Both the position numbers and the translations under genes were made by a program. 53,114 nt of DNA from an uncultured Erysipelotrichaceae bacterium (GTDB lineage: Bacteria > Bacillota_I > Bacilli_A > RF39 > UBA660): the NCBI GenBank assembly GCA_902780395.1, contig CACZFH010000019.1, forward strand, positions 1-53,114. The letters run 5' to 3'. Of this stretch, positions 33,974 through 49,548 are shown one piece after another. Position 1 is the stretch's first letter; each line of letters begins with the position of its first letter. Under the pieces are notes generated by a model that searched no databases, was not told where the DNA came from, and worked only from the letters and a program-made list of their open reading frames with translations.

Positions 33974-33997
33974 CATATATTAAAATAGGTGAAAAAA

Positions 33998-34315
33998 ATG
34001 AATCAAAAATTTGACGGTGTTATTATCGATGCTGGTCATGGAGGAATTGATAGTGGAGCAATAGGAAATAATTTACAAGAAAAAGACTTAAACCTAAGAG
34101 CTTCTAAATATATGAAAAAAAGATTAGATGAATTAGGAATTCCAAGTAAAATGACTAGAGAGGAAGATGAATATCTACCTAAAGAAGAAAGAATAAGAAA
34201 AGTTTTATCTCTATACAACAATAGTCCCAATACTATCTTAATATCCAATCATATAAATGCTGGTGGTGGCGATGGTCAAAGTGTAACAAATATTAGTATA
34301 ACAATAAAAGCCTAA
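33998..34315 (+). pseudogene. N-acetylmuramoyl-L-alanine amidase, 5' part cut by the mobile element
   Basis: MNQKFDGVIIDAGHGGIDSGAIGNNLQEKDLNLRAS... is the start of an Amidase_3 domain: the zinc ligands His in DAGHGG, Glu in LQEKDLN and His in ISNHINA are visible. After the INAGGG loop (about 34268) the frame enters the element and stops after about 15 foreign codons at 34315. The missing catalytic Glu and the LysM tail lie at 48616-49548. I start at ATG 33998 after AGGTGA, not the GTG at 33989. Confidence 0.93.
34255..34290. other. attL: left junction of the integrated element
   Basis: Host amidase sequence runs to GGTGGTG (34262-34268), also found at 48622-48628. To its right lies an element arm GGTCAAAGTGTAAC (34274-34287), which is inverted relative to GTTACATTTTGACC at the other end (13 of 14 match). 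See attR. Confidence 0.85.
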
Positions 34316-34340
34316 AAATAATGAGAAAAGAGGAAATGTT

Positions 34341-34691
34341 ATGAATATTAGTTACACTAAGAAAGGTGATTATTTATTACCTAATTTAATACTTAAAGAT
34401 AAGGAACAATATAATATAGGAAAATATGGATTATTAAGACTACAATATATTAAGAGATATAAACTTGGATTATATTTTGATTTACTTGTTAATGATACTT
34501 TAAATGAATATCTACATGATATAGATGTTACTGTTATGGAGAAGGTGCAGAGTTTAATTAAAGAACTTGCTGAAAAAGAAAATATAAATGAAAAATTAAA
34601 ACAGGATAATCAAATACTTTGGGTAAGTAAAATGAATAATATTAAAAATATAGCAGAAGAAATAATTCTAAAGGAGTATATCTATGTGTGA
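34341..34691 (+). CDS. TnpV-like transposon-encoded protein
   Basis: 116 aa. MNISYTKKGDYLLPNLIL, IGKYGLLRLQYIK, LNEYLHDID and the QDNQILWVSKMNNIKNIAEEIIL end match the TnpV family found in serine-recombinase elements of clostridia. Function is not established; it travels with these elements. First gene inside the left end. Confidence 0.85.
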   Translation: MNISYTKKGDYLLPNLILKDKEQYNIGKYGLLRLQYIKRYKLGLYFDLLVNDTLNEYLHDIDVTVMEKVQSLIKELAEKENINEKLKQDNQILWVSKMNNIKNIAEEIILKEYIYV

Positions 34692-34983
34692 TATTACTGA
34701 TGAAGAATTTGAAAGAATATACTTACCAGTATGTATTAATTATGATAACTATCTAAAAGAATTTGTAATACCTGATGCAGTGGCATTTTATATAGCAGAT
34801 AATTTTTATAAAAAAGTACTTTCTAAAGCACCACTATATAATCATATTAATTCAGCAATAGATATATTTAATGTAAGTTGTGATGTAGATAAACTTATAC
34901 CATCTATAAAGAAGATATTAAGAATAAAATATAATTTAAGAATAGTAAAAGATAATCCATTGATATTAAAGAAATTTTATTAA
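34684..34983 (+). CDS. Uncharacterised element protein, 99 aa
   Basis: Not recognised. Helical, with hydrophobic and charged residues alternating. AAGGAG precedes the ATG inside the end of tnpV (8-bp overlap), so the two genes are coupled. A terminator follows. Confidence 0.6.
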   Translation: MCDITDEEFERIYLPVCINYDNYLKEFVIPDAVAFYIADNFYKKVLSKAPLYNHINSAIDIFNVSCDVDKLIPSIKKILRIKYNLRIVKDNPLILKKFY

Positions 34984-34988
34984 AAATA

Positions 34989-35024
34989 AAACACTATCTA
35001 ACATTCATTTGTTAAATAGTGTTT
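34989..35024 (+). terminator. Terminator after the tnpV pair
   Basis: AACACTAT-c-TAAC with GTTA-a-ATAGTGTT: 12-bp broken stem, T run following. Confidence 0.78.
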
Positions 35025-35052
35025 TTATGTTATTACAAACATATTTACCTTC

Positions 35053-35190
35053 CTATCTAATATTAAATACTTGTTTCACGTAGTTTTTAGCTAGCTCATT
35101 ACGAATTGTATCATACAATACTTGATTAGGGTTTACTCTTCTTTGAGATATTAGAATCATGTTGTTATATAATTTGCATCTATCGATCAT
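35053..35190 (-). CDS. Tiny basic protein, 45 aa
   Basis: ATG at 35190-35188 with AAGGAG six bases upstream on the minus strand, ending TAG at 35053. The sequence is MIDRCKLYNNMILISQRRVN... and ends YVKQVFNIR; net basic. A TATAAT-like box lies upstream on the same strand (complement of 35243-35248). The spacing of these signals is the evidence; no family is recognised. It could be a small DNA-binding protein or control ORF of the element. Confidence 0.55.
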   Translation of the reverse strand: MIDRCKLYNNMILISQRRVNPNQVLYDTIRNELAKNYVKQVFNIR

Positions 35191-35210
35191 ATTGTTCTCC
35201 TTCCATATAA

Positions 35211-35356
35211 ATTTTGTACAAATATCCTTGTACTTAAATGGATTATATCACTAACTACTAATAGTGTCAAAATGCTATTTGGGAGTTATGTTATTGTCTA
35301 GCCAGCACTGAATTTGTACTCCCGTACGAAATTCTTTTGTGGGATTACTCCCAAAC
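35211..35356. promoter_or_regulatory. Cluster of inverted repeats between divergent element genes (operator or oriT-like)
   Basis: Four nested or adjacent symmetrical sites: GTACAA-N6-TTGTAC (35215-35232); CACTA...TAGTG (35249-35266); a bulged hairpin GAATTTGTAC/GTACGAAATTC (35310-35334); and TTTGGGAGT (35278-35286) facing ACTCCCAAA (35347-35355). TACTCC recurs three times. The stretch codes for nothing on the plus strand. Either a regulatory hub for the two divergent units or an origin of transfer; the second is speculation since no relaxase is present. Confidence 0.45.
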
Positions 35357-35379
35357 CCTGCTAAAAATGTTGAAATATG

Positions 35380-35388
35380 TGCTATAAT
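35380..35388 (+). promoter_or_regulatory. Extended -10 of the HEPN/restriction operon
   Basis: TG-C-TATAAT, 28 bp before the ATG at 35416. Confidence 0.65.
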
Positions 35389-35415
35389 AATTGTATAGAT
35401 TTAAGAGGTGATATA

Positions 35416-36111
35416 ATGGAATCTAGTTTAGATATATGTATTAATATTATAAAAGATATGCTTATTGAAAACAAACCAGTTACTTTTGTTTCACCTAATT
35501 ATGTAAGATTTAAGGATATAATAACCAGATATGTATATGATAGAAACTTGGATAATACTCTTGAGTGGAATGTGATATCAGAATTAATGATATACACTTC
35601 CAATCAAACTTTAAGTGGGGCAGCAGCAAATAACATACTAATAAATTTGGAAAAACTCAAAAGATTAGATTTAAAACAAAAACAAGAAGAGGTAATTTTT
35701 GATAATCAAATTCATGGCATGATTTCAAATGTTTGTAAGAAAAAGTATTTTGATGGACATTATGCTGATGCAGTTGAAAGTGCTTTTAAAGAAGTAAATT
35801 CCAGATGTAAAAAAATATATAAAACGAAAGTTGGAGAAGAAAAAGATGGTTCTGATTTGATGAATAAATTATTTTCTCCTAATAATCCAATGTTAGCATT
35901 TGAAGACAATAGTACAGATTCTGGTAAGAATGTACAGCAAGGATATATGCAAATATTTTCTGGTTCAATGACAGGAATAAGAAATCCAAAAGCACATGAG
36001 AATCAAGTATTAACTAAAGAAAGTGCATATAAGAGATTAATGTTAGCAAGTTTGTTGATGGAAAAAATAGATGAAGCAGAAAACTATGAAAATAGTTTAA
36101 TAACTAATTAA
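35416..36111 (+). CDS. HEPN-type TIGR02391/Ymh-like protein
   Basis: 231 aa. The C-terminal block FSGSMTGIRNPKAHENQVLTKESAYKRLMLASLLMEKIDEAE matches the TIGR02391 (Ymh) family and holds the R-x4-H of HEPN RNases (RNPKAH). ATG 35416 follows AGAGGTGATAT; an earlier ATG at 35377 lies on the promoter and is rejected. It is the first gene of a unit with mod and res (14-bp gaps), so it probably adds an RNase-based or abortive function to the restriction system, or senses its failure. Confidence 0.82.
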   Translation: MESSLDICINIIKDMLIENKPVTFVSPNYVRFKDIITRYVYDRNLDNTLEWNVISELMIYTSNQTLSGAAANNILINLEKLKRLDLKQKQEEVIFDNQIHGMISNVCKKKYFDGHYADAVESAFKEVNSRCKKIYKTKVGEEKDGSDLMNKLFSPNNPMLAFEDNSTDSGKNVQQGYMQIFSGSMTGIRNPKAHENQVLTKESAYKRLMLASLLMEKIDEAENYENSLITN

Positions 36112-36125
36112 TATTGGAGGTAGAC

Positions 36126-38090
36126 ATGATTAAAAATGTAGTAGAGAAAAATAAAAATATAGATGTTAATGCAGATAAAATGGATAAATTAAAAGAAATG
36201 TTTCCTAATTGTTTTAATGTCAATGGTGAGTTTGATATATCTGTATTTGAAGAAGAGTTAAAAGAAAATACTTCTATCATAAAAGAAGGTTATGGTTTAA
36301 ATTTTTTAGGGAAAAATTATGCTAAATATGTAGCATCTTTGGATACTGAAACTATACTTGTTCCAGATGAAAAAAATAACAATAAAGATGAAAATAAAAA
36401 TAGTGAAAATATTTATATATCTGGTGATAACATTGATGCTTTAAAACATCTTGTAAAATCATATTCTGGAGAAATTAAATGTATTTATATAGATCCACCA
36501 TATAATACAGGAAGTGATGGTTTTGTTTATAATGATAAATTTAATTTGGGTATTGATAAATTAGTTGAGGTTTTAGATATAAATGAAGAAGAAGCTAAGA
36601 GAATTTACAATATGACAAATGCAAAATCTAATTCTCATTCTGCATGGTTAACATTTATGTATCCAAGATTGTATTTGGCAAGACAATTGTTAAAAAAAGA
36701 TGGTGTAATATTTATTTCAATAGATGATAACGAACAATCTAATTTAAAATTATTATGCGATAATATTTATGGCGAAGAGAATTTTATTAATCAGTTTAGC
36801 TGGGTTTCAAATATTACTGGTAGACAAATATCTGGTAAAGGAGCTGCAAAAACATTTGAAACAGTTTTAGCATATGCTAGGAATATAGATGATTGTGAAA
36901 ATTTTAGTATTGATATAGATTTTGCTAAGAAAAAAATGCCTGATACTTATAAAGGTTTTGAAAAAGACATTAGAGAAGATGAATTTGGTAAATATTCTGT
37001 TGGCGATACATTATACAATCATAATAGAAAATTTAATGAAGAAACTCGTCCAACTCTAGTTTTTTCAATATATTATAATCCTTCTACAAATGATATAATA
37101 ACTGATGATATAAATAAACACCATAATGGATATATTGAAATAAAACCTCATACAAATGGTGATGGAATACATAAGTATCATGCTTGGAGATGGTCAAGAC
37201 AGAAAATTGAAAATGAAAAGTATAATTTGATTGTATTAACAATGAGTAATGGTGATTATGAAATTCATACAAAAATTAGAGATTTTAAATCAACAACATT
37301 AAAAGATTTAATAACGAATATTTCTAATGGCGATGATGAATTAATAAAACTATTTGATGGAAAAAAATGTTTTAATTATCCTAAATCCGTTGATTTAGTT
37401 AGAGTATTAATTAATTCGATTACAACAAGAAATGAATTGATTCTAGATTTCTTTTCTGGTTCTGCAACAACTGCACATACAGTGTTAGAATTAAATGCTA
37501 AAGATAAAGGTAATAGAAAATACATATTGGTTCAATTACCAGAATTATGTGATACTAAATCAGAAGCATATAAAAATGGTTATAAAACAATTGATGAAAT
37601 AGGCCAAGAAAGAATAAGAAGAGCTGCTAAAAAGATTAAGGAAGAAACTAATGCTGATATAGATTATGGCTTTAAGCATTATACTATTAAAGAAGTAAAT
37701 ACAAACACATTAGATAAATTAGAAAAATTTGAACCTAATTATGTAATTTCAGATGGTAGTATTTTAGATGAATTTGGAATTAATGCAGTATTGACTACAT
37801 GGATGAATGAAGATGGATACGGATTAACTGATAAATATGAAAAATTAGAATTAGAAGATTATACTGCATATAAATGTCAAAATACAATTTATTTATTAAA
37901 TTGGAATATATCAGATTTGTTTATTAAAGCTTTAATAGAAAAATATGAAAAGGAAGAAAATTTTGATTGTAATCGAATTGTAATGTTTGGTTATTCATTT
38001 ACACTAAATGAGATTCAAACTTTAAAAGATAACTTACAACAAGTAAAAAATATTAAAGGTATTAATGTTGAGGTAATAACAAGATACTAG
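36126..38090 (+). CDS. mod: Type III restriction-modification methyltransferase subunit (Mod)
   Basis: 654 aa. The catalytic DPPYNTGS motif (about residue 127) precedes the SAM-binding FFSGSATTAHTV (about residue 444), the beta-class order of N6-adenine methylases. The region between them is the target recognition domain, which sets the DNA sequence methylated. It modifies and thereby protects host DNA and is needed by Res for recognition. TTGGAGG before the ATG at 36126. Full length, no frameshift seen. Confidence 0.93.
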   Translation: MIKNVVEKNKNIDVNADKMDKLKEMFPNCFNVNGEFDISVFEEELKENTSIIKEGYGLNFLGKNYAKYVASLDTETILVPDEKNNNKDENKNSENIYISGDNIDALKHLVKSYSGEIKCIYIDPPYNTGSDGFVYNDKFNLGIDKLVEVLDINEEEAKRIYNMTNAKSNSHSAWLTFMYPRLYLARQLLKKDGVIFISIDDNEQSNLKLLCDNIYGEENFINQFSWVSNITGRQISGKGAAKTFETVLAYARNIDDCENFSIDIDFAKKKMPDTYKGFEKDIREDEFGKYSVGDTLYNHNRKFNEETRPTLVFSIYYNPSTNDIITDDINKHHNGYIEIKPHTNGDGIHKYHAWRWSRQKIENEKYNLIVLTMSNGDYEIHTKIRDFKSTTLKDLITNISNGDDELIKLFDGKKCFNYPKSVDLVRVLINSITTRNELILDFFSGSATTAHTVLELNAKDKGNRKYILVQLPELCDTKSEAYKNGYKTIDEIGQERIRRAAKKIKEETNADIDYGFKHYTIKEVNTNTLDKLEKFEPNYVISDGSILDEFGINAVLTTWMNEDGYGLTDKYEKLELEDYTAYKCQNTIYLLNWNISDLFIKALIEKYEKEENFDCNRIVMFGYSFTLNEIQTLKDNLQQVKNIKGINVEVITRY

Positions 38091-38103
38091 AAAGGAGTAT
38101 ATT

Positions 38104-41031
38104 ATGGGATTAAAACTTGAAAAAGGATTAAAGCATCAAACAGAAGCAGTTGATAGGATAAATAAAGTCTTTGAAAATGTTCCTATTTTAAACAATACTT
38201 TGAAATATGCTAATCCTATTGTAAATTTGAATTCTAGTAAATTGTTAAATAATATAAAAGGGCTAAATGATGAATTACCTTCTTCATTGAAAGGAAATGT
38301 TGATATTGGTGACTATTTGAATATAGATATTAAAATGGAAACTGGTACTGGAAAAACTTATGTTTATACAAAGACTATATTTGAATTAAATAAAAATTAT
38401 GGTATTCATAAGTTTATAATTTTAGTACCTTCATTGCCTATTAAATTAGGAACAACTAATTTTATTAATTCATATGAATCAATTAGTCACTTTAAAGATC
38501 AATATGGTAAAAGTATAGATTTATATGTATTAAATGCTAAAAAGGGAAATAAAAAAGGAAAAGATACTTTTCCAAGTAGTATAAGAGGATTTGTAGAAAC
38601 ATCCGAATTAATAAGAAATAGAATTAGTGTTTTAATAGTTAATATGCAATTATTTAAAGATAATTCTATGCTTACTAAAGATTATTCATCTACCGTTGAA
38701 GATTTTTCTGTACCTAGTGAAGCAATCAATGCTACAAGACCTTTTATTATAATAGATGAACCACATAGATTTTCAAAAAATAATAAGACTTTTGAATTTA
38801 TTGAAAATAAAATTAAGCCACAATGTATTATAAGGTTTGGTGCCACTTTCCCTGATATAAAAAATGGAAGAAATGTTGAAAAGGATTATCATAATTTAAT
38901 TTATAACTTAGGAAGTTGTGATGCATTTAATCAAAATTTAGTAAAAGGCGTAAGTGTTAAATATTTAGAATCTCCTAATGGTAATAACAAGAAAATCAAA
39001 GTATTAGAATTGTGTAATAAGAAAACCGTTAAACTAGAATTAATTTCAGAGAATAATAAGAAAACATTTGAATTAGAAAAAGGTGATTCTTTAAAACAAA
39101 TAGATAACTCATTTGAAAATATATATGTTGATGGAATTGGAAAAACACTACTTTTATCAAACGGTCAAGAATTAAACAGAGGTTCCGAAATATATGCAGA
39201 TATTTATTCAACATCATATCAAACTGTAATGATTGAAAATGCTTTAGATGCACATTTTGAAACAGAGAAGCAAAATTTTAAAAGAAGAGACAAAATTAAA
39301 ACATTAGCACTTTTCTTTATTGATGATATAGACTCTTATAGAGAAAACAAACAAAATCCACAGCCAACATATTTAAAAGATATTTTTGAAAAAATATTAA
39401 AGAAGAAAATTGAAAGAGAATTAAGTAAAATAAATGTTGATGATTCTAATGAATTACTATATAAAGAATATTTAGATGAAACACTAAAGGATATTTCTAA
39501 ATGCCATGGTGGATATTTTTCGAAAGATAATAATGACTCAGATGAAAATATTGCAGAAGAGATTAATAATATTTTAATTAATAAAGAGGAAACACTTTCG
39601 ATTTATAAGAAAAATGGAAAATTTAATACATTTAGATTTATATTTTCAAAGTGGACATTAAAAGAAGGATGGGATAATCCAAATGTATTTACTATTGCTA
39701 AATTAAGAAGTAGTGGAAGTGATAATAGTAAAATACAGGAAGTTGGTAGAGGGTTACGTTTACCTGTAAACGAAAGTCTATCGCGTATTTCAGATGAACA
39801 ATTTTATTTAAATTATATAGTTGATTTTACTGAAAAAAATTTTGCAGAGAAGTTAATAAATGAAATTAATGGAGATATAAGTGAAAATAAAGTAATTACT
39901 GATGAACAATTAAATGCATTAGCATGTTCATTAGGAAAGACTTCAAAGGAAATATTTATTGAATTATTACAAAAAGATTATATTGATATGGATAAAAATA
40001 TTGTTACCATCAATAGAGACAGATTATTTAGTGAATATCCTGATTTAAATATTGGTTTAAAATCTGGCAAAGTTATTAATAAAAACAATAATGTTATTCA
40101 TAAAGCAAAAATCAGAAAAAATAGATTTGATGAAATTAAAGAATTATGGTCAATATTAAATAGAAAATATTTTATTTCTTATTCTAAAATGAGCGATGAT
40201 GAAATAACAAGACAACTCGTAAATATATTAAAAACTGGGATTGAGGGAACCGCTGAACTTGTAAGTTATGAAAATAAAATTATGACTGATGAAAATGGTG
40301 CATTTATGGTAAGAGAAGCAGGAACTGAATATGGTGTATATGAAGACTCTATTCCATATAATGTATTTTTGAATAAAATATATAATAGTACAAATATTCC
40401 AATAAAAGTAATACACAATGCATTTGTTGAATTTAGTAAAAACAGGATGTTAGAAGATTCTTTCTTCAATAATAATACTTTAATAAATTTTATAAATAGA
40501 ATAAATAGTTGGAAACATGAAATGCTATTTGGAAAATTTAAATATTCTTCAACTGCTTTGGAAAACGAAGAAACAGCATTAACTGATAAAGAAGGAAATC
40601 CTAAAGAATATGTTGCTGATGGTAGTCTTGGAGTAGGTTATAGTGAGGAAGACAAGCCAAGTGATAAGTATTTATATGATATTTGTTTATATGACTCTGA
40701 ACTTGAAAAGAAAAATATAATGCTTGATAATGATGAGGTAATTGTTTTTGGTAAAATACCTTCAAGAAGTATTAGAATACCTCTTATTGATGGTACTAGT
40801 TATAGTCCTGACTTTATGTATGTTATTAAAAGAGATAATGATATTAAAGAAATTAATTTAGTTATAGAAACGAAGGATTATAAAACAGAAGAAGATATTC
40901 CATCTGATCAAAAATATAAAATTAAATGTGCTGAAAGATTTTTTGAGCAATTAAAAGAAGATGGTTATGATGTTAAGTTCAGAGTACAAATAAATAATAC
41001 TCAAATATCTAATTTAATAAAAAAATTATAA
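38104..41031 (+). CDS. res: Type III restriction endonuclease subunit (Res)
   Basis: 975 aa. Superfamily 2 helicase motifs: Walker A METGTGKTYV (about residues 78-87), DExx box IIIDEPHRF, and motif VI region QEVGRGLRLPV. The C-terminal nuclease domain shows SPDFMYVI...NLVIETKDYK, a PD-(D/E)xK site. It translocates along DNA and cuts between two unmodified sites in head-to-head orientation. 13 bp after mod with AAAGGAG. Length and motifs suggest the gene is intact. Confidence 0.94.
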   Translation: MGLKLEKGLKHQTEAVDRINKVFENVPILNNTLKYANPIVNLNSSKLLNNIKGLNDELPSSLKGNVDIGDYLNIDIKMETGTGKTYVYTKTIFELNKNYGIHKFIILVPSLPIKLGTTNFINSYESISHFKDQYGKSIDLYVLNAKKGNKKGKDTFPSSIRGFVETSELIRNRISVLIVNMQLFKDNSMLTKDYSSTVEDFSVPSEAINATRPFIIIDEPHRFSKNNKTFEFIENKIKPQCIIRFGATFPDIKNGRNVEKDYHNLIYNLGSCDAFNQNLVKGVSVKYLESPNGNNKKIKVLELCNKKTVKLELISENNKKTFELEKGDSLKQIDNSFENIYVDGIGKTLLLSNGQELNRGSEIYADIYSTSYQTVMIENALDAHFETEKQNFKRRDKIKTLALFFIDDIDSYRENKQNPQPTYLKDIFEKILKKKIERELSKINVDDSNELLYKEYLDETLKDISKCHGGYFSKDNNDSDENIAEEINNILINKEETLSIYKKNGKFNTFRFIFSKWTLKEGWDNPNVFTIAKLRSSGSDNSKIQEVGRGLRLPVNESLSRISDEQFYLNYIVDFTEKNFAEKLINEINGDISENKVITDEQLNALACSLGKTSKEIFIELLQKDYIDMDKNIVTINRDRLFSEYPDLNIGLKSGKVINKNNNVIHKAKIRKNRFDEIKELWSILNRKYFISYSKMSDDEITRQLVNILKTGIEGTAELVSYENKIMTDENGAFMVREAGTEYGVYEDSIPYNVFLNKIYNSTNIPIKVIHNAFVEFSKNRMLEDSFFNNNTLINFINRINSWKHEMLFGKFKYSSTALENEETALTDKEGNPKEYVADGSLGVGYSEEDKPSDKYLYDICLYDSELEKKNIMLDNDEVIVFGKIPSRSIRIPLIDGTSYSPDFMYVIKRDNDIKEINLVIETKDYKTEEDIPSDQKYKIKCAERFFEQLKEDGYDVKFRVQINNTQISNLIKKL

Positions 41032-41056
41032 ATTTATTTATTTAACCGAGGAAGTA

Positions 41057-41065
41057 TGATATAAT
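41057..41065 (+). promoter_or_regulatory. Extended -10 promoter of the retron RNA
   Basis: TG-A-TATAAT (41057-41065) is 25 bp past the res stop and would start transcription near 41072. If the a1/a2 pairing noted in the findings is right, transcription must begin further upstream instead. Confidence 0.55.
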
Positions 41066-41071
41066 ACCTAT

Positions 41072-41290
41072 TGTAATTTGAAAGCAGGCAATAACTGGAT
41101 AATTACAACTAATAATGGCAGTTGAAATAATACTGTGTGCTCAAATTTATGGGACGTTGGGAGATTTGCAAGCAAATAAATGCTATGCTGGATGTTTGTG
41201 GTGCTGAGCCAGTCAAGCTGTCTCAGCACCTACAAACATTATTCCATCATACCACTGGAAAGCTAAATGCGAAGAGGTTAATTAAAACAT
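41072..41290 (+). ncRNA. Retron non-coding RNA (msr-msd), approximate ends
   Basis: A non-coding, heavily structured stretch between res and the reverse transcriptase operon. 5' hairpin: TTGTAATT (41071-41078) with AATTACAA (41101-41108). Middle: ATTTGC-aa-GCAAAT (41164-41177). Main msd-like hairpin: ATGTTTGTGGTGCTGAG (41192-41208) with CTCAGCACC-T-ACAAACAT (41222-41239), a 17-bp stem with one bulged T and a 13-base loop, extended outward by TGG/CCA and TATG/CATA pairs. Position just before a retron-type reverse transcriptase fits the msr-msd. Exact ends and the branching guanosine are not assignable by eye. Confidence 0.72.
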
Positions 41291-41342
41291 CGGTCGTGTC
41301 ACCTTTTATTTATTTTTAAAAATTAAATAGGAGGTGAAAAAA

Positions 41343-41558
41343 GTGAGAAAAAATATGAGCAAAAAAGTAAATGAGATTATTATCTCTTTACGAAATAAAT
41401 CAAAAATGATAAAGCCATTTGATTCTATAATAGTATTTATACTTATTATGGGTTATTATGATTTTGGAGTATTTCAAAGTCTAGCAATTATTATGTATAT
41501 TGTTTATAAGATTCGTTCAAATAAATCAAATTTTAATAATAAGGTGGCATTCTCATAA
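41343..41558 (+). CDS. Small membrane protein between retron RNA and RT (candidate effector)
   Basis: About 71 aa from GTG 41343 (AGGAGGTG six bases upstream). A basic N-terminus (RKNMSKKVNEIIISLRNKSK) precedes a hydrophobic region of about 31 residues that could form one long or two short membrane helices (SIIVFILIMGYYDFG, VFQSLAIIMYIVYKI), then a basic tail. Known retrons pair RT and RNA with a toxic effector, including two-helix membrane proteins. Its place between RNA and RT makes it the likely effector; this is inference. Confidence 0.65.
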   Translation: MRKNMSKKVNEIIISLRNKSKMIKPFDSIIVFILIMGYYDFGVFQSLAIIMYIVYKIRSNKSNFNNKVAFS

Positions 41559-41590
41559 CGAGCGAAGTATTGTCTTTTAATTAACCGTTG

Positions 41591-41613
41591 AAGCGCATTT
41601 AGCGCTTTTTCCT
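41591..41613 (+). terminator. Hairpin between the small membrane gene and the RT gene
   Basis: AAGCGC-attta-GCGCTT followed by TTTCC and a second T run. It could partly terminate the upstream RNA and limit RT production. Confidence 0.6.
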
Positions 41614-41630
41614 TTTTTAGAGGTGACAAT

Positions 41631-42866
41631 ATGAGAACAAATACAGTTTATAAAAATAGTTTATATGCATGTTATAGTAAAAGAAAATTAGCTAAATTAT
41701 TATCAAATAAAGATTTAAAAGTACATACAAAAGAGATAAGAAATCCTGATCATCATTTTCTAAATAAAAAAAGAACATTCTATCAATCTAAGGTAACTAA
41801 AGAGATATTTGATAAAAAACCAACTGATTATTCACCAAGCAAGTATAGAGAATTTAGTGATAGTTGTGATAAGCATAAAAAAGTATTAAGGCAAATATGT
41901 TTTTATTTATCACAAATAAAAATGCCAGAGTATTTATTTTCGAAAAAAGAAAGCGATTATAAAAGAAATGCTTTATATCATATAGGTAACACAAAATTTA
42001 TTTTATTAGATATAAATAGCTTTTTTCCAAATTGTAAATTTAAACAAATTAAGAATTTTTTTGCTAAAGAGTCTGGATTACATATGGTAAAAGAGAAAAA
42101 AGATAAAGATGGCAATATAATTGTTTATGAAAGTGATGTTGCAGATAGGATGGCAAAAATTGTTACTGTGCCTATTGATTCTTCATCTACTGGAGCGAGG
42201 ATTATTCCACAGGGATATCCAACTAGTCCTATAGTCAGCTTTCTATCTTATAAGGAAATGTTTGATAAAATAAATAATGTGGCTATAAAATATAATTGTA
42301 GATTTAGTACATATGTTGATGATTTATCATTTTCTTATAAGGATAGTACTTTTGATCCTAATGATTTAGTTGCTGAAGTTAGTAGTATCTTAAAAGATTA
42401 TAATCATTCAATTAGCGAGAAAAAAATTAAGATAATTGACATTGAAAAAGAATTAGGGCCAAATGAGCAATTAATATTACCGTTAATTACAGGATTAACA
42501 GTTAAAAGATATTGCGTAAGAGCTTCAAAAAAGATGCATTCAAAAATGAATAAACTGTTTAATAAGTTTATTTCAATGGGTGAACCTAAAAATGAATTTG
42601 AATACATTAAAAAGTGGAAATGTTTTATTTCTTTGAATGGGATGTTTAATACAATAGAATATGTAGAACCATCATCAACAAAAAAGAACAGGGAACATAT
42701 AAAGGAAGTAATAGATAAGAATAAAAAGAATTATGCTTTTCACGTAAAAATTCAAAGAGTTGAACAACTAAAATATGAAAGAAAAATATTTGATGCATAT
42801 AAAAATGGTACATTAATGGAATTTATAAATAAAAACAAAGATAAGTTGATAAATTATAAAAAGTAA
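41631..42866 (+). CDS. Retron-type reverse transcriptase
   Basis: 411 aa. Retron marks: NAxxH as NALYH (residues 113-117) just before the first catalytic Asp (LLD127INSFFPN); PQGYPTSP (193-200); YVDD (228-231) with Val in place of the usual Ala; and the ITGLTV (286-291) matching the VTG motif of the retron Y region. Comparison from memory with the Eco1 RT gives HIGANFIL/HIGNTKFIL alignment around the same point. There is no endonuclease or maturase domain, so not a group II intron. GAGGTGACA before the ATG. It should reverse transcribe the RNA upstream into msDNA. Confidence 0.9.
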   Translation: MRTNTVYKNSLYACYSKRKLAKLLSNKDLKVHTKEIRNPDHHFLNKKRTFYQSKVTKEIFDKKPTDYSPSKYREFSDSCDKHKKVLRQICFYLSQIKMPEYLFSKKESDYKRNALYHIGNTKFILLDINSFFPNCKFKQIKNFFAKESGLHMVKEKKDKDGNIIVYESDVADRMAKIVTVPIDSSSTGARIIPQGYPTSPIVSFLSYKEMFDKINNVAIKYNCRFSTYVDDLSFSYKDSTFDPNDLVAEVSSILKDYNHSISEKKIKIIDIEKELGPNEQLILPLITGLTVKRYCVRASKKMHSKMNKLFNKFISMGEPKNEFEYIKKWKCFISLNGMFNTIEYVEPSSTKKNREHIKEVIDKNKKNYAFHVKIQRVEQLKYERKIFDAYKNGTLMEFINKNKDKLINYKK

Positions 42867-42871
42867 TATTC

Positions 42872-42902
42872 TTATGGGAGTACAGTTTGTACTCCTTTTT
42901 TC
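42872..42902 (+). terminator. Terminator of the retron operon
   Basis: GGGAGTACA-gttt-TGTACTCC followed by TTTTTTC. The GGAGTAC/GTACTCC sequence also occurs in the 35310-35356 repeat cluster. Confidence 0.85.
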
Positions 42903-42968
42903 TTTTTTGTACAATATCTTTTAATTTTTATTTAATGTAAGATGAAAACACCTAGGAGAAGTATTATG

Positions 42969-42984
42969 TAAAAGTGCACTTTTA
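42969..42984. promoter_or_regulatory. Perfect 16-bp palindrome, likely operator
   Basis: TAAAAGTGCACTTTTA, about 40 bp upstream of the helix-turn-helix gene at 43025. A self-regulated operator is the simplest reading. Confidence 0.55.
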
Positions 42985-43024
42985 TAAAGATATATTTTAT
43001 GTATGATTCTATAGAACGGATACT

Positions 43025-43519
43025 ATGGAAGAATTTATAAATCCAATTATACCAATATCGGTATTAAGTGATAGTAGAATATCATCTTTAGAAAAGTTAT
43101 TATTACTGCACATAATTTCTTTGTGTAAGAATAAAGGATATTGTTGGGCTACAAATAGTTATTTTATGAATATTCATGGATATAGTAAACAAACAATATC
43201 TAAAAGTATTAATCATCTTGCCTCTTTAAATTATATTAATTTGAATTATGAAAAAGATAGTACTAATAATTCTAAACGTACAATTACACTTGACCATGTA
43301 TTAAAGAATAAGATACAGGGGATTAAAGAAAACTTTAATTCTAGTATTCAACCAAACTTTAAACAATATAATAAAAGTAATATAAATAAAATATATTACA
43401 AAGATGAGTGTGGTAATGAATATTGGAATGGACAACTAATTAAAAGTGAAACACCAACTGATGAAGAACTTAAAGAAATGAATAAATTATTAATGGAATT
43501 TAAAAAAGAGGAGGAATAA
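43025..43519 (+). CDS. Helix-turn-helix protein of the mobile element
   Basis: 164 aa. Residues 1-80 look like the winged-helix HTH_36 fold common in replication-initiator-like proteins of mobile elements (SLEKLLLLHIISLCKNKGYCWATNSYFMNIHGYSKQTISKSINHLASLNYINL). The C-terminal half is Asn/Lys/Glu-rich. Likely control or replication of the element. No strong ribosome binding site (GAACGGATACT). Confidence 0.72.
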   Translation: MEEFINPIIPISVLSDSRISSLEKLLLLHIISLCKNKGYCWATNSYFMNIHGYSKQTISKSINHLASLNYINLNYEKDSTNNSKRTITLDHVLKNKIQGIKENFNSSIQPNFKQYNKSNINKIYYKDECGNEYWNGQLIKSETPTDEELKEMNKLLMEFKKEEE

Positions 43520-43565
43520 AAATATTATGGGAAAAATTATCATAGAATTTTTTAAGAGGTGAAAT

Positions 43566-43661
43566 ATGTTTAATATTAAAGAAACCTTTGAAAAAGATGA
43601 TAATTCTACTATTAATGATTTGATAATTGGATATATAAAATGTGTTTTAATAAAATCGTAG
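43566..43661 (+). CDS. Mini-ORF upstream of the recombinase, 31 aa
   Basis: AAGAGGTGAAAT-ATG gives a strong ribosome binding site; the ORF codes MFNIKETFEKDD... and ends CVLIKS, stopping at TAG 43659-43661, 9 bp before the recombinase start. It may be a leader that tunes recombinase translation. No family. Confidence 0.45.
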   Translation: MFNIKETFEKDDNSTINDLIIGYIKCVLIKS

Positions 43662-43670
43662 ATTTGTTAT

Positions 43671-45323
43671 ATGTCTATTTTAATGGTAGACTCAAATCAG
43701 GCTTTAAATGTTATACAAAAGAAAGGAGTAGAAGCCGTGTATAACACTATATTACAACACCCTAGTTACTATAGAGTAGGATTATATATAAGATTATCTG
43801 AAGCAGATTCTGATAAAAGTTATGAATCAGAAAGTGAAAGTATTATTAATCAAAGAAATTTATTAATGAGTTTTGTAAAACAAAATGAATTTACCTTTGT
43901 CGATGAATATATTGATGATGGATTTACTGGTACTAATTTTGATAGACCTGGATTTAAAAGGTTACTTGAAGATATTGAAAATGGTAGAATAAACTGTGTT
44001 ATAACAAAAGATTTATCTAGACTTGGTAGAAATTATGTTACTTGTGGTTATTATGTAGATGAGTATTTTCTTTTAAAAAAAGTTAGATATATTGCTGTAC
44101 TTGATCAAGTAGATACTTTTTTAAATAATGTTGGTAATGAAATGATACCTTTTAAATCAGTATTTAATGATATGACAAGTAGAGATAATTCTAAAAAGAT
44201 ACGTTCTATTTTAAGAAATAAGAAAGAAGATGGAAAATTTATTGGAAGTGAGCCTAGCTTTGGTTATATGAGAGACCCAGATGATAAAGGGCATTTATTA
44301 CCTAATCCTGATACTGCCTTTATTGTTAAAAAGATATTTGAAATGGCAAATGATGGTGTAAGTGTAAGTGATATTGCAAGTTATCTTAATGATTGTAAAT
44401 ATCCTACACCAAGTTTATACAAAAAGAAAGAAGGTTCAAAACAAAAATTCAATCCTATATGGACTGTTTCATCAGTAAAGAAAATACTAAAAAATCAAAT
44501 GTATACAGGTGATATGGTACAAAATGTCCAAACTAAATTATCATATAAATCTCAAAAGAAAGTTGCTCTTAATAAAGAATCATGGATAATTGTAGAGAAT
44601 ACTCATGAACCATTAGTTAGTAAAGAAGTTTTTAATAAAGTTCAAAGTAATGTTAAAAGAAAGCAGAAAACACAAACTGATAGAGAAAAAAGATTATTTG
44701 AAAATCTTATTTATTGTCAGGAATGTGGTAATACTTTAACGGTTACTTACCGAAAAAATCATGATTATTGGACTGTTAATTGTAATAAATATTCAAGAGA
44801 TCCTAGAAGACATTTATGTTATCCACATTTTATGCCTTATGATAAATTAGAAGAAGCATTACTAAGTACTATTAAAAGTACTTGTAAGAAATATTTAGAT
44901 GAGATTGACGTTAAATCATTAGCACAACTTATAAATGATAAAAATACTTCTAAAGAAAGTACAACGGAAGAAATTAATTTTTTGAATAAAAAAATTAAAG
45001 AATACAATGCTAAAATTGATATGCTATATGATGATAAATTTAAAGGTAATATTTCAGAGGATACTTATAAAAGATTATCAAGAGAAACAGAAATATTATT
45101 AAATCAATCTAAATCTAGAATAGAAGAATTACAAGCAGTAGATATAAAGAAAAAAGAGTCTACAAAAGAAATGAAAAACTATGAAGATAAAATTAAGAAC
45201 TTAGTAAATCTAGATAATCCAAGTAGAGAATTATTACAATCTATCATTGATAAGATAGTAATTGATAAAGATAGAAATGTTGAAATATTTTATAAATTCA
45301 GTTTATTAAATGATATTGATTAA
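43671..45323 (+). CDS. Large serine recombinase (integrase), TnpX-like
   Basis: 550 aa, typical for large serine recombinases. Resolvase domain: RVGLYIRLSEAD with the nucleophile Ser43, DEYIDDGFTGTNFDRPGFKRLLEDI and ITKDLSRLGRNYVTCGYYVDEYF. Recombinase domain from about residue 190 (FGYMRDPDDKGHLLPNPDTAFIVKKIFEMA), zinc ribbon (CQECGNTLTV...CNKY..RRHLC) and coiled-coil near the C-terminus. It should cut and rejoin attP/attB at the amidase gene. ATG 43671 lacks a good ribosome binding site; a GTG at 43738 after AAAGGAG gives YNTILQHPSYYRVGLYIRLS and may be the true start. Confidence 0.92.
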   Translation: MSILMVDSNQALNVIQKKGVEAVYNTILQHPSYYRVGLYIRLSEADSDKSYESESESIINQRNLLMSFVKQNEFTFVDEYIDDGFTGTNFDRPGFKRLLEDIENGRINCVITKDLSRLGRNYVTCGYYVDEYFLLKKVRYIAVLDQVDTFLNNVGNEMIPFKSVFNDMTSRDNSKKIRSILRNKKEDGKFIGSEPSFGYMRDPDDKGHLLPNPDTAFIVKKIFEMANDGVSVSDIASYLNDCKYPTPSLYKKKEGSKQKFNPIWTVSSVKKILKNQMYTGDMVQNVQTKLSYKSQKKVALNKESWIIVENTHEPLVSKEVFNKVQSNVKRKQKTQTDREKRLFENLIYCQECGNTLTVTYRKNHDYWTVNCNKYSRDPRRHLCYPHFMPYDKLEEALLSTIKSTCKKYLDEIDVKSLAQLINDKNTSKESTTEEINFLNKKIKEYNAKIDMLYDDKFKGNISEDTYKRLSRETEILLNQSKSRIEELQAVDIKKKESTKEMKNYEDKIKNLVNLDNPSRELLQSIIDKIVIDKDRNVEIFYKFSLLNDID

Positions 45324-45325
45324 TT

Positions 45326-45348
45326 GAAGTTAGTTTATTACTAACTTC
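45326..45348 (+). terminator. Hairpin after the recombinase
   Basis: GAAGTTAGT-ttatt-ACTAACTTC: 9-bp perfect stem 3 bp after the stop. No T run, so termination is uncertain. Its AGTT/AACT content resembles the palindrome family that follows. Confidence 0.45.
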
Positions 45349-45413
45349 GTACATATAGAGGCGAAAATACAAAGAAATTATGTGTAAAATTATTGAATAT
45401 AAATGTTATAACA

Positions 45414-45687
45414 AACTTGTGACCAGATTGGGTACAAGTTACTAATATGAATGATTAATTAACTTTGGCCCAAGTTGGGCCAAAGTTAGTGCAATATTTC
45501 CTAACTTCCCACCAACTTGAATGGAAGTGGGATAATTAAACTTTCTGACTAATGGTTCAAAAGATATGAAAGGTTTCTAACCAATTTGGAAAGAAGTTGC
45601 AATGTTAAATTTGAAGGAATAATAATTATTGCTTTGATTCTATTAATATTTAAAAAAACTAACTTTGTCGCAAGTGGCGACAAAGTT
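45414..45687. repeat. Array of six 27-nt palindromes with covarying arms
   Basis: Units at 45414-45440, 45461-45487, 45503-45529, 45539-45565, 45572-45598 and 45661-45687, each 27 nt with an odd centre. Consensus: AACTT-N5-CAA-N-TTG-N5-AAGTT, where the right N5 is mostly the reverse complement of the left N5. Left/right N5 pairs: GTGAC/GGTAC, TGGCC/GGCCA, CCCAC/AATGG, TCTGA/TTCAA, CTAAC/GAAAG, TGTCG/CGACA. Two copies (45461, 45661) are perfect or nearly so. Centre spacing is 47, 42, 36, 33 and 89 bp. Ends and centre are conserved, the middle varies but stays self-complementary. Function unknown. Confidence 0.82.
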
Positions 45688-45758
45688 AAAAAAATTTTAA
45701 ATAATATATTTTAATTTTAAGCAAATTATAATATTGACGTAATAATTTTAAAAAATAA

Positions 45759-45788
45759 AAAGTTATTACGATTGAGCGTAATAACTTT
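45759..45788. repeat. 12-bp inverted repeat overlapping the AAA gene promoter
   Basis: AAAGTTATTACG (45759-45770), 6-base gap, CGTAATAACTTT (45777-45788). A third CGTAATAA half-site is at 45738-45745. The right arm covers the -35 of the AAA gene, so an operator or attenuator is plausible. Shares AAGTT/AACTT ends with the array but has an even centre. Confidence 0.65.
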
Positions 45789-45814
45789 ACAAAAATATCA
45801 AAATGATATATAAT
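45786..45814 (+). promoter_or_regulatory. Promoter of the AAA/UPF0158/TPR-like unit
   Basis: TTTACA (45786-45791), 17-bp spacer, TATAAT (45809-45814), 19 bp before the ATG at 45834. Confidence 0.7.
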
Positions 45815-45833
45815 GTATAGAGAGGTGATTTAT

Positions 45834-47039
45834 ATGCTTTTAAGAGAAGATTATTTATCTAAAATTAGAGGATTCTATGATTCAGATTTAATTAAAATAT
45901 TGGTTGGTATAAGAAGATGTGGAAAATCAGTTATTTTAAATCAAATAATAGATGAATTAAAAGATAAAAGAAAAATAGATGAAGAACATATTATATTTAT
46001 TAATTTTGAATTTATAGAATTTGAAGATTTATTAGATTATAAAAAACTAAATAAATATATAAAAGATAAAATTAAAGATAATAAAATATATTATTTATTT
46101 TTAGACGAAATTCAGAACGTGGATAATTTTGAAAAAGTTGTTAATTCACTACGTGCTTCAATAAAAAATATAAGTATATTTTTAACTGGTTCTAATAGTA
46201 AAATGTTATCTGATGAGTTATCATCAGTTTTATCAGGTAGATATGTTTTATTTAATATTAATCCTTTATCTTATAAGGAATATGTTTCTTTAACAAAAAA
46301 AGATGGAAATGACTTAAATACTTTTTGGGACTATGCTAAATGGGGAGGACTTCCTAATAGATGTGAATTTACAAATGAGATAGATATAAAAAATTATCTT
46401 CATAGTGTATATGATTCTATTATTTTAAGAGATGTTGTAAAAAGATTAAATTTAAAGGATACAGTTTTATTTGATATGATATTACAATATTTAATTGAAA
46501 CTGCTGGTCGTGAATTCTCTGCCGATAATATTATAAAATATTTGGATAAAGAAAATAAGAAAATATCTAATGAAACACTTTATAATTATATAGATGCGTT
46601 ATGTAAAGCATTAATACTTAAAAAGGTATATAGATATGATATTGCTGGTAAAGGTGTATTAAAAACATTAAATAAGTATTATGCTACTGATTTAGGAATT
46701 GCTCAAATAAAAAATAATAATCCAGAATTTAAAAGTTATGTTGTTTTAGAAAATATTGTTTATAATGAGTTAATAAACAGAAACTACGAAGTATATATTG
46801 GTAAAACTAAAAATGGTGAAGTTGACTTTTTAGCAAAGAAAGATGGAAATATTAAATATATCCAAGTAACTTATGAAATGGAAGGCAACGATAATACCAT
46901 AGAAAGAGAATTTGGAGCATATAAGTCTATAGAAGATAATTATCCAAAATATGTTATTTCTCTTGATAAAATAGATTTATCTCGTGATGGAATCATTCAT
47001 CTAAATTTAATTGATTTTCTATTAAGTAAAGAGTTTTAA
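45834..47039 (+). CDS. AAA_14/DUF4143 ATPase
   Basis: 401 aa. N-terminal ATPase: Walker A GIRRCGKS (about residue 25) and Walker B YYLFLDEIQNVDNFE. C-terminal DUF4143 with YIGKTKNGEVDFLAKKDGNIKYIQVTYEME, a PD-(D/E)xK-like nuclease fold (Glu-Val-Asp then Gln-Val). Widespread accessory family of unknown role, often near defence or mobile genes. ATG 45834 after AGAGGTGATT; the longer frame from 45813 lies over the promoter. First gene after the palindrome array. Confidence 0.85.
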   Translation: MLLREDYLSKIRGFYDSDLIKILVGIRRCGKSVILNQIIDELKDKRKIDEEHIIFINFEFIEFEDLLDYKKLNKYIKDKIKDNKIYYLFLDEIQNVDNFEKVVNSLRASIKNISIFLTGSNSKMLSDELSSVLSGRYVLFNINPLSYKEYVSLTKKDGNDLNTFWDYAKWGGLPNRCEFTNEIDIKNYLHSVYDSIILRDVVKRLNLKDTVLFDMILQYLIETAGREFSADNIIKYLDKENKKISNETLYNYIDALCKALILKKVYRYDIAGKGVLKTLNKYYATDLGIAQIKNNNPEFKSYVVLENIVYNELINRNYEVYIGKTKNGEVDFLAKKDGNIKYIQVTYEMEGNDNTIEREFGAYKSIEDNYPKYVISLDKIDLSRDGIIHLNLIDFLLSKEF

Positions 47040-47121
47040 AATGATGTATTTAAACCGTTACAAAGTGTAACACTTATGGAAAATTATATATTATAGAAAT
47101 AAAGTAGTAGGTGATGTAAAA

Positions 47122-47532
47122 ATGATTAAATTATCTCAAGTAAGAGATGCATTATATGATGTTAGTATGGAAACAAGTTGTTATTTTAATATCAAAACAA
47201 ATGAAATATTGTGGCATTTTGATTTCAATGAAGAAGGATCAACATATACTGAAGAAGATGAATTTAATGATGATATTATTAGTATGTTTAATTTTTATAC
47301 TAAAAATGACTATGATATTATGCAAGACTTTATTAGTAATATAAGTAATAATTCATTAAGAAACGAATTATTTAATGCAACTAGAGGAAAAGGTGCCTTT
47401 TATAGATTTAGAGAAATAACTGATTATAATAGCATAACGGATGATTGGTATATATTTCGAGATAATGAATATAAGAAAATTGCTGAAGAATGGTGCAACG
47501 ATAATAAAATAGAATATGAAAAAGATTGTTAA
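47122..47532 (+). CDS. UPF0158-family protein
   Basis: 136 aa. The family ending is clear: DFISNISNNSLRNELFNATRGKGAFYRFREI and DDWYIFRDNEYKKIAEEWCNDNKIEYE. Function unknown; often beside uncharacterised accessory genes. AGTAGGTGATG upstream. Followed after 25 bp by the TPR-like gene. Confidence 0.78.
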   Translation: MIKLSQVRDALYDVSMETSCYFNIKTNEILWHFDFNEEGSTYTEEDEFNDDIISMFNFYTKNDYDIMQDFISNISNNSLRNELFNATRGKGAFYRFREITDYNSITDDWYIFRDNEYKKIAEEWCNDNKIEYEKDC

Positions 47533-47557
47533 AAAAAGAAAGTAGTAGGTGGAGTAA

Positions 47558-48445
47558 ATGGATAATAAATTTAATAATATGTTACAAGAATTTTTAAAGA
47601 ATAATAATGTTGAAAATATTGATGAAGCAAATGAAAAATTACAAGAGTTTATAAAAATGTATAATAATGGAGAAATAGAATATGAAAATACACCTCTAGA
47701 TGATGCATATGAAATATTAGAAGAGGCACAAAATGCAAAAACTGAAAAAGAAGCTATAAAGTTAGCTAAAAAAGCATATGAAAAATCAAAGGAATGTTTT
47801 GACGCAATTTTATTTCAATGTGATTTAGAAGAAAATGGAATAAGAAGAATGAAACTTTTAGATGATGGTTTAGAATTTGAAAAAAACAGATTAATAAAAG
47901 AAAAATATTTTGATAAAGAAAATATTGGACATTTTTATGGAATATTTGAAACAAGACCATACATTAGAGGATTGGTTATTAAAGCAGAGTATTTACTAGA
48001 AGAAGGAAAAATAAGTCAAGCAGAAAATGTATGTAGAGAAGTTTTAAGATTAAATGAGAATGATAATATGGGTGCTAGATATTTATTAATGGCAATATAT
48101 GCAACATTAGAAAAGGAAAACGATATGTTGAAATTATATAAAAAATATCCAGAAGAAGATTTAGAAATGATATTCCCTTTATTTGCTCTATATTATAAGC
48201 TTGGAAATGATAAGAAAGCAAAAGAATATTTAAATAGAATTGATAAATGCAATTCAAATTTTGTTAAATTTTTTAATGGCACTATAAAAGAAAGTAAAAA
48301 AGTTGAACCTGGATATTATAGTAGAGGTGACTCTTCTGAAATTTTTATGTATTTAGATCGTTATGATTATTTACTAATTACAATGCCAAAACTTCATGAA
48401 TATGTTATAGAAAATTTAATGAAGAATAAAAAGAGTAAAAAATAA
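47558..48445 (+). CDS. Tetratricopeptide-like protein, 295 aa
   Basis: Repeated helical pairs (for example AIKLAKKAYEKSKECFDAILFQC, YLLEEGKISQAENVCREVLRLNENDNMGARYLLMAIYATL, PLFALYYKLGNDKKAKEYLNRI) fit TPR-type scaffold proteins. The ETRPYIRGLVIKAEYL segment resembles a region shared with other accessory TPR/passenger proteins. Not a known enzyme. Likely works with the UPF0158 protein, given the spacing and the similar GTAGGTG-type ribosome binding sites. Confidence 0.65.
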   Translation: MDNKFNNMLQEFLKNNNVENIDEANEKLQEFIKMYNNGEIEYENTPLDDAYEILEEAQNAKTEKEAIKLAKKAYEKSKECFDAILFQCDLEENGIRRMKLLDDGLEFEKNRLIKEKYFDKENIGHFYGIFETRPYIRGLVIKAEYLLEEGKISQAENVCREVLRLNENDNMGARYLLMAIYATLEKENDMLKLYKKYPEEDLEMIFPLFALYYKLGNDKKAKEYLNRIDKCNSNFVKFFNGTIKESKKVEPGYYSRGDSSEIFMYLDRYDYLLITMPKLHEYVIENLMKNKKSKK

Positions 48446-48466
48446 TGGAATGATATAAAAAAGAGT

Positions 48467-48614
48467 CAGTTGGTTACAATTTGTCACCAACTGAAAAATA
48501 TAAGATGAATTAACTGGAGACAATTTGTCACCAATTGAGTTTGAAATATAAAGTCGGAACCGTGACAATTTTTCACACTTTCAAGACTGAAAATAAAATA
48601 GTTACATTTTGACC
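48467..48614. repeat. Right-end repeats: three 27-nt palindromes plus an attP arm
   Basis: Units at 48467-48493, 48511-48537 and 48556-48582 follow the same 27-nt plan with a CAA-T-TTG (or CAA-T-TTT) centre; left/right N5 are GGTTA/TCACC, GGAGA/TCACC and CGTGA/TCACA. Centres are 44 and 45 bp apart. About 38 bp further lies the attP arm GTTACATTTTGACC (48601-48614), which resembles the units' own GTTACAATTTGTCACC. The row could be extra recombinase or directionality-factor sites. Confidence 0.72.
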
Positions 48615-48640
48615 TATGCGAGGTGGTGAAGGAGCAGAAG
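48601..48640. other. attR: right junction of the integrated element
   Basis: The element arm GTTACATTTTGACC (48601-48614) is followed by GGTGGTG (48622-48628), after which host amidase codons resume (GAA GGA GCA GAA GTA). Joining this arm to that at 34274-34287 around the core gives a symmetrical attP. Confidence 0.85.
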
Positions 48641-49548
48641 TAGTTTATGCACTGAAGAATAATTCTATTTTAGCCGAAAAAATACTAAATAATATTGAAG
48701 AAAAGGGGCAAATTCCTAGAAAAATCTATCAAAGGAGATTACCAGAAAATCCTAATTTAGATTATTATTATATCTTAAGAGAAACCGGTAATACAACACC
48801 TCTGCTAGTAGAATATGGTTTTATAGATAATAAAGCTGATTCAATAAAATTAGACAAAAATATAGAAGAATATGTAGAAGGAGTAGTTCAAGCTATTGCA
48901 GAATACTTAAATTATCCTTATAAGCCTCCTAAAGAGGAACAAGCTAAAGACTCATATATTGTTCAAAAAGGAGATACTCTCTACTCTATATCAAAAAAAA
49001 TGAATATTCCAATAGAAACAATAAAAAAGATAAATAAACTAGATAATAATAACTTATCTATTGGACAAATACTTTACTTAAATGAAAAAGATAATCCAGA
49101 AGAAGAATATTACGTTGTTCAAAAAGGAGACACACTTTACTCTATTAGTAAAAAATTTCAAATGAAAATAGAAGAATTAAAAGAATTAAATGATATTTCA
49201 AGTGATATTCTTCAAGTAGGACAAGTACTAATTATAGATGACAATAAATCACCAGATAATAATCAAACCTACATAGTAGCAAAGGGGGATAGTCTATGGG
49301 GAATATCAAAGAAATATAATATCCCAATAAAAGAATTAATAGAGATTAATCAATTAGATAATTTGACATTGCAAATAGGACAAGAATTAATTATTCCTTC
49401 CTCAGAAAAAGATATTTATATTGTTCAAAAAGGAGATACTCTATGGTCTGTTGCTAAAAAAAATGGATTATCTGTAGAAGAATTAAAGAAATTAAATAAT
49501 CTGACAACTAATCTTTTATCTGTAGGCCAAAAACTAATAACACAATAA
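48616..49548 (+). pseudogene. Amidase 3' part with four LysM domains
   Basis: Rest of the gene begun at 33998. MRGGEGAEVVYALKNNS continues the INAGG of the 5' part, and TPLLVEYGFIDN carries the catalytic Glu of Amidase_3. Four LysM repeats (about residues 112-160, 168-208, 219-258, 267-310) with the YIVxKGDTLxSIxKK pattern bind peptidoglycan. An ATG made by the element sequence at 48616 opens the frame, but no ribosome binding site is seen, so expression is doubtful. The ancestral protein would have been about 400 aa. Confidence 0.92.

Follow-up and report, generated by a model that had tools for sequence, protein, structure and literature searches.

Six clustered palindromes in the 53,114-nucleotide stretch of DNA analysed here (the window; contig C19 of genome G000, a low-GC genome of 1.8 Mb in 73 contigs) were found to share their form with a palindrome that resides within the parB genes of ICEs and whose arms follow the recognition helix of the encoded ParB. 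On these grounds we consider, with a probability of roughly 0.7, that the six palindromes represent parS-like sites, namely putative operators for the ParBs of several different ICE-type conjugative elements, situated beside the recombinase of a defence-carrying island.

A pattern search of the window for the form AACTT-n5-CAANTTG-n5-AAGTT located six 27-bp odd palindromes at 45414–45687 (Table 1), in which the units starting at 45414, 45461, 45503, 45539, 45572, and 45661 displayed 1, 0, 1, 3, 3, and 1 mismatches, respectively. These six matches within 274 bp compared with 1.02 expected over the whole 53-kb window, and none of 100 shuffles reached six. The six-unit family described in the original prediction was thus present, but its supposedly fixed ends and centre were strictly so in unit 2 only. 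Likewise, the 5-nt arms, described as mostly matched, were fully paired in units 2 and 6 and partially in units 1 and 5, whereas two to three of the six units, including units 3 and 4, were degenerate. The tally of nine units given there probably counted the hairpins at 45327–45349, at the 3' end of the recombinase gene, and at 45759–45788, in the promoter of the DUF4143 gene. Outside the array, the 1.8-Mb genome contained no match to the pattern with ≤1 mismatch; the scattered matches with two to three mismatches were consistent with chance and were discarded, one of them, in contig C47, being a parB unit itself. BLAST searches of the array gave no match among phages and three short weak matches among plasmids.

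Table 1. Positions of the palindromes, element borders, and genes in the window
Feature	Position	Strand	Remarks
Interrupted N-acetylmuramoyl-L-alanine amidase, 5' fragment	33989..34315	+	Amidase_3 profile positions 1-80
Element left end: amidase core GGTGGTG (34262-34268), then recombinase half-site GGTCAAAGTGTAAC (34274-34287)	34262..34287	+	
TnpV	34341..34691	+	PF14198, 1.7e-36
Cargo: type III restriction-modification mod and res	36114..41031	+	
Cargo: retron-type reverse transcriptase	41631..42866	+	PADLOC RT_VI best
HTH_36 protein	43025..43519	+	Conserved directly upstream of recombinase
Large serine recombinase	43671..45323	+	Resolvase, Recombinase, and Zn ribbon domains; 47 orthologous loci
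Hairpin directly behind recombinase stop, then GTACATA	45327..45349	+	
Putative parS-like site 1, AACTTGTGACCAGATTGGGTACAAGTT, arm class AC/CC	45414..45440		24/27 like AACTTGTGACCAAGTTGGGGACAAGTT in ICE parB L379, helix SKSQ
Putative parS-like site 2, AACTTTGGCCCAAGTTGGGCCAAAGTT, perfect palindrome, class CC	45461..45487		25/27 like parB L302 site, helix SVNQ
Putative parS-like site 3, AACTTCCCACCAACTTGAATGGAAGTG, right arm degenerate	45503..45529		
Putative parS-like site 4, degenerate in window	45539..45565		G153 copy ACGACCAATTTGGTCG near-perfect over arms
Putative parS-like site 5, GGTTTCTAACCAATTTGGAAAGAAGTT	45572..45598		
Putative parS-like site 6, AACTTTGTCGCAAGTGGCGACAAAGTT, class CG	45661..45687		25/27 like parB L105 site, helix SRDQ
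Cargo: AAA_14/DUF4143 (PADLOC candidate PDC-S01), UPF0158, and TPR genes	45813..48445	+	
Element right end: inverted half-site GTTACATTTTGACC (48601-48614), then core GGTGGTG (48622-48628)	48601..48628	+	
Amidase gene, 3' part	48616..49548	+	Amidase_3 positions 85-173, then LysM

Homologous arrays, on whose existence in other genomes the original prediction had been staked, were found upon scanning 84,980 species genomes, which yielded 47 orthologous recombinase loci in relatives recorded as uncultured Bacilli/Erysipelotrichaceae metagenome assemblies. Behind the recombinase stop, 0 to about 10 units were present per locus, and arrays of 1–10 units occurred in 30-odd of the 47 loci; at many loci, the first unit lay 2–5 bp past the stop codon. 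Where the window has the hairpin 45327–45349, many relatives had a complete parS-like unit, after which came TACATA. The loop of this hairpin (TTTATTA/TAATAAA) was inverted between strains. Meanwhile, the wider serine-recombinase relatives (L177–L286) had hardly any units, with eight matches in 829 kb, one of which had paired arms.

The original prediction had placed the array between the recombinase and an AAA/DUF4143 operon and had missed to which of the two it belongs. Both G066 and G153 kept the array behind a 97% identical recombinase, and since G153 does so without the DUF4143 gene, the array belongs to the recombinase element and not to the AAA/DUF4143 gene. A link between the array and that operon was rejected in that the part they shared was the promoter palindrome at 45759–45788, which is common in the family without an array. 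This palindrome (AAAGTTATTACG-CGTAATAACTTT), conserved in many family genomes, is a probable operator or attenuator of the AAA/DUF4143 gene.

To judge arm pairing, 54 distinct units from 48 recombinase loci were picked by their ends and centre only, blind to the arms. Their arms paired at 2.98 of 4 positions versus 1.23 after shuffling (maximum 1.74 in 5000 shuffles), a comparison in which loci of closely related genomes were not independent and distinct units and identity thresholds served to reduce this effect. The same arm-blind selection gave 0.015 matches per kb elsewhere in the loci, the density behind the recombinase being about 180-fold higher. Among strains with 97–98% identical recombinases, the arms varied more than the spacers (0.38 versus 0.21 of columns, p = 0.025), and part of this variation was compensated, as in the change of unit 2 from C9-G19 to T9-A19. 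The arms of relatives thus change with compensation, and the claim that dyad symmetry rather than the letters themselves is under selection was well supported.

The same palindrome was also found to lie inside ICE parB genes, which the original prediction had missed. A pattern scan of 386 family genomes with the arms left free revealed many further palindromes, and those not behind the recombinase were mostly inside parB genes following parA. Across some 50 diverse ParBs from the window's family and other Bacilli, Clostridia, viral contigs, and one Streptococcus phage record, the unit was positioned between the ParB N-terminal domain (ParB_N) and the HTH. The encoded proteins belong to the ParB family (PF02195 ParB_N, TIGR00180) and match the structures of Spo0J, Noc, and ParB. 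The peptide encoded by the palindrome varied (TSDQVGEKL, TSRPMVGKL, LSPVATKL, FGQVVQKF), while the DNA was often a perfect 13-pair palindrome. Around each of 12 ICEs, for which 19–40 kb were fetched, a single unit copy was present, inside parB, and no further copy of the cognate site was found elsewhere in the fetched stretches. The dyad-symmetric DNA is thus carried on the very element encoding the ParB; in Bacillus subtilis, the parB gene is known to contain a parS. In addition, an arm-blind scan of 2.9 million viral contigs returned 21 stretches, 17 with arms paired at least 3/4 and 12 inside ParB-like genes. One viral contig (L412 5283, L424 1465) bore two intergenic perfect units having the same GTCT arms and no ParB match at the sites, a possible further parS mimic.

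The recognition helices of these ParBs were aligned as S-x1-x2-(Q/T/K), corresponding to Caulobacter residues 172–175, by HMMER alignment to Spo0J and reference to PMC7383237, in which residue 173 is a proven specificity residue of ParB/Noc. Residue x2 (Caulobacter ParB position 174) was shown to predict bases 9–10 of the left half-site: N accompanied CC (12/12), D accompanied CG (4/4), E accompanied CA (7/7), and K accompanied GA (2/2). With R at x2, base 9 was G in 14 of 15 cases, and base 10 was C when x1 was mostly A/E/Q and A when it was mostly G; S or T went mostly with AC or CC. The mutual information between x2 and the bases was reached in 0/5000 permutations at <70% identity (n = 30) and in 5/5000 at <60% (n = 17), the test being without power below 50%, where six sequences were available. 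Among 11 helix-region positions, x2 followed by x1 was the most informative, as were 9 and 10 among 13 site positions. Furthermore, in pairs at 40–50% identity, equal x2 was accompanied by equal bases in 50/91 cases and unequal x2 in 37/588. One and the same set served to detect the rule and to test it initially; the small out-of-sample support consists of two new ParB types from the viral contig scan that obeyed it, SKDT with CG (L416) and SSRQ with GC (L417, L422, L425).

The site sequence therefore covaries with the DNA-reading residues of ParB, and this rule, together with the location of the unit inside parB, makes the units look like ParB-binding (parS-like) sites. This agrees with one of the three roles offered by the original prediction, a set of protein binding sites, as judged from sequence. 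The second role, an RNA, would imply transcribed hairpins with covarying stems, acting as a regulatory RNA, an antiterminator, or a frameshift signal in parB. Covarying arms and an array following the recombinase gene on the same strand are as such a reading would have them, and one parB clade has an A-AAA-AAG/C slippery heptamer with a −1 frame change just before the unit. However, the conserved centre is palindromic right up to its middle base, and no RNA hairpin could form pairs that far into its loop; A·C mismatches outnumbered G·U (24 versus 11) in the sense strand of the parB sites, the reverse of the tolerance expected of an RNA family. Moreover, the array had no match in Rfam, and an RNA stem would not track a residue of the ParB recognition helix. 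We accordingly give the RNA interpretation very little credence, and the arm covariation looks like a reflection of dimeric recognition of symmetric DNA instead of an RNA stem. The −1 frame change (L005 3466–4409 in C47, L090, L124, L125, L126) is possibly a programmed frameshift, or else gene decay or an assembly error at the A-run.

The symmetry could also have arisen without selection, if the units were sites for the element's own protein (HTH_36 or the recombinase) reading only the ends and centre, with replication keeping the arms symmetric through quasi-palindrome correction. Symmetric mutations are known to arise from template switching, a loop inversion between strains is seen at the recombinase-end hairpin, and HTH_36 is always adjacent. 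These features notwithstanding, such an explanation leaves unaccounted for the same unit in the parB of unrelated elements, the helix–arm rule, and the resemblance between the arms of the array and those of ICE sites, and it is hence improbable. As to this resemblance, 25 of 55 array units shared at least 24 of 27 positions with a known ICE parB site, versus 5.4 for random symmetric arms (maximum 12 in 1000 trials).

The borders of the recombinase element were identified in an amidase gene, within which it extends over about 34269–48621 (about 14.35 kb). Its ends are inverted GGTCAAANTGTAAC half-sites adjoining a shared core, GGTGGTG, and the amidase was intact across the break in ten same-genus genomes, G013 among them. 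The element therefore has its own integrase and a precise insertion, as expected of an integrative mobilisable element; no relaxase domain was recognised among the element ORFs scanned. The succession HTH_36–recombinase–array–amidase was constant across loci, while the cargo varied between them. A retron-type reverse transcriptase (PADLOC RT_VI) was also cargo in L094. No match to an ICE-type ParB was present in the window, so that the sites lie on an element without parAB of its own, as in SGI1 mimicry.

These borders bear on the third role offered, a recombination substrate, in which the units would be att/core sites of the neighbouring serine recombinase or integron-like cassette-insertion sites. 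The fixed place of the first unit behind the recombinase stop would fit, as would cargo that differs beside the last unit and the one gene lying inside an array, a minus-strand gene for a 327-aa membrane protein flanked by two units (L174 6953–7936), which implies that cargo can sit inside the array. Nevertheless, the element ends are other half-sites in the amidase gene, and because they differ from the units, the units are not att sites. Array deletions ended in spacers and not at unit centres, and the unit also occurs in ICE parB genes into which nothing has been inserted. This role was thus regarded as very improbable. For the same reasons, two specific versions were dismissed: insertion of the recombinase at the parB unit as attB, given that the ends lie in the amidase gene and differ, and site-specific recombination between units, given that deletion ends lie in spacers.

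Under the ParB-site reading, each ICE would carry one site inside its own parB, with conserved ends (AACTTY) and centre, and the 4–5-bp arms would be read by the ParB recognition helix and hence differ between ICEs, staying symmetric because a ParB dimer would read both halves. The window array would then be a collection of ParB sites with several specificities, adjoining the serine recombinase of the approximately 14-kb integrative element. Upon entry of an ICE, its ParB may load on the array, whereby the excised element would be partitioned and stabilised via the ICE machinery, and/or ParB would be titrated, destabilising the ICE; multiple specificities in one array would be fitting for an element exposed to many ICEs. 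The integrative mobilisable element SGI1 employs two parS mimics that bind the ParB of its helper IncC plasmid, stabilise SGI1, and expel the helper (PMC10954446). By analogy to SGI1 with its single helper plasmid, hijacking or blocking of rival mobile elements by the island is suggested. Neither is favoured, since element-bearing genomes showed neither an excess nor a deficit of ICE-type ParB (9/47 versus about 31/193 family genomes), a comparison in which MAG assemblies may miss ICEs. Counting against the ParB-site reading, besides the degenerate units of the window, no ICE-type ParB was found in the array-bearing G066, G153, and G020 genomes, and the ICE-type parB of the window genome itself (C47) contains a site of the CA class, matched by none of the six window units. 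In G184/G667, the element's unit and the parB site of the resident ICE share a GTCG arm on one side.

Alternatively, the array may serve as an ICE sensor, on which the ParB of an incoming ICE would load and from which it would spread, thereby activating or silencing recombinase or cargo genes. ParB spreading and silencing are known for the ParB family, and the array directly adjoins the recombinase and the cargo promoters; however, the sites lie downstream of the recombinase and not at its promoter, and we regard the sensor as rather unlikely. A bolder form of the ParB-site reading, which we put forward tentatively and at somewhat less than even odds, is that the mobile defence island maintains a rapidly changing set of parS mimics, every one of them matched to the ParB of another ICE. 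This library would act, without coding for anything, as a weapon against conjugative elements of many kinds or as a docking station for them. The faster change of arms than of spacers would then be due to an arms race over ParB specificity.

The likeness to SGI1 DR1/DR2 (PMC10954446) is that an integrated element without partition genes of its own bears symmetric parS copies of a conjugative element. In SGI1, on the other hand, the two sites share a single specificity, for one family of plasmids in Gammaproteobacteria, as demonstrated by EMSA and stability assays, whereas up to ten sites of several specificities, putatively for Bacillota ICEs, were deduced here from sequence. Similarly, parS/NBS of the ParB/Noc family (PMC7383237) are palindromes read by an HTH recognition helix in which residue 173 sets specificity, but they are 16-bp even palindromes, unlike the 27-bp odd palindrome with a 7-bp centre described here, in which a single residue (174) corresponds to two bases of the site across many natural variants. 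Integron attC arrays, CRISPR, and ToxIN-type repeats also form clustered, partly palindromic units; in the present array there are no cassettes, equal spacers, or unique spacers between units, no tyrosine integrase, and no identical units. Tn4451/TnpX-type islands have in common with this element a large serine recombinase, TnpV, insertion into a gene, and inverted half-sites at both ends, and differ from it in the parS-like array, the defence cargo, and the absence of a recognised relaxase here.

So far, the documented case of decoy centromeres has been that of SGI1 and IncC plasmids, where a single specificity is involved, and we propose that Bacillota islands may use them in several specificities against or with ICEs. 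The array would be a readable record of the conjugative elements that a lineage may have met, and the rule of one helix residue for two site bases constitutes a natural ParB recognition code that is directly testable. Apart from this array, a second palindrome cluster, with the centre ACAATTTGT (CAGTTGGTTACAATTTGTCACCAACTG and two relatives), was observed at 48467–48600 of the window, adjoining the element right end, and related elements (L005, L087, L094) had the ACAATTTGT core within the coding part of their BRO/antirepressor genes (VTNCHQLKL).
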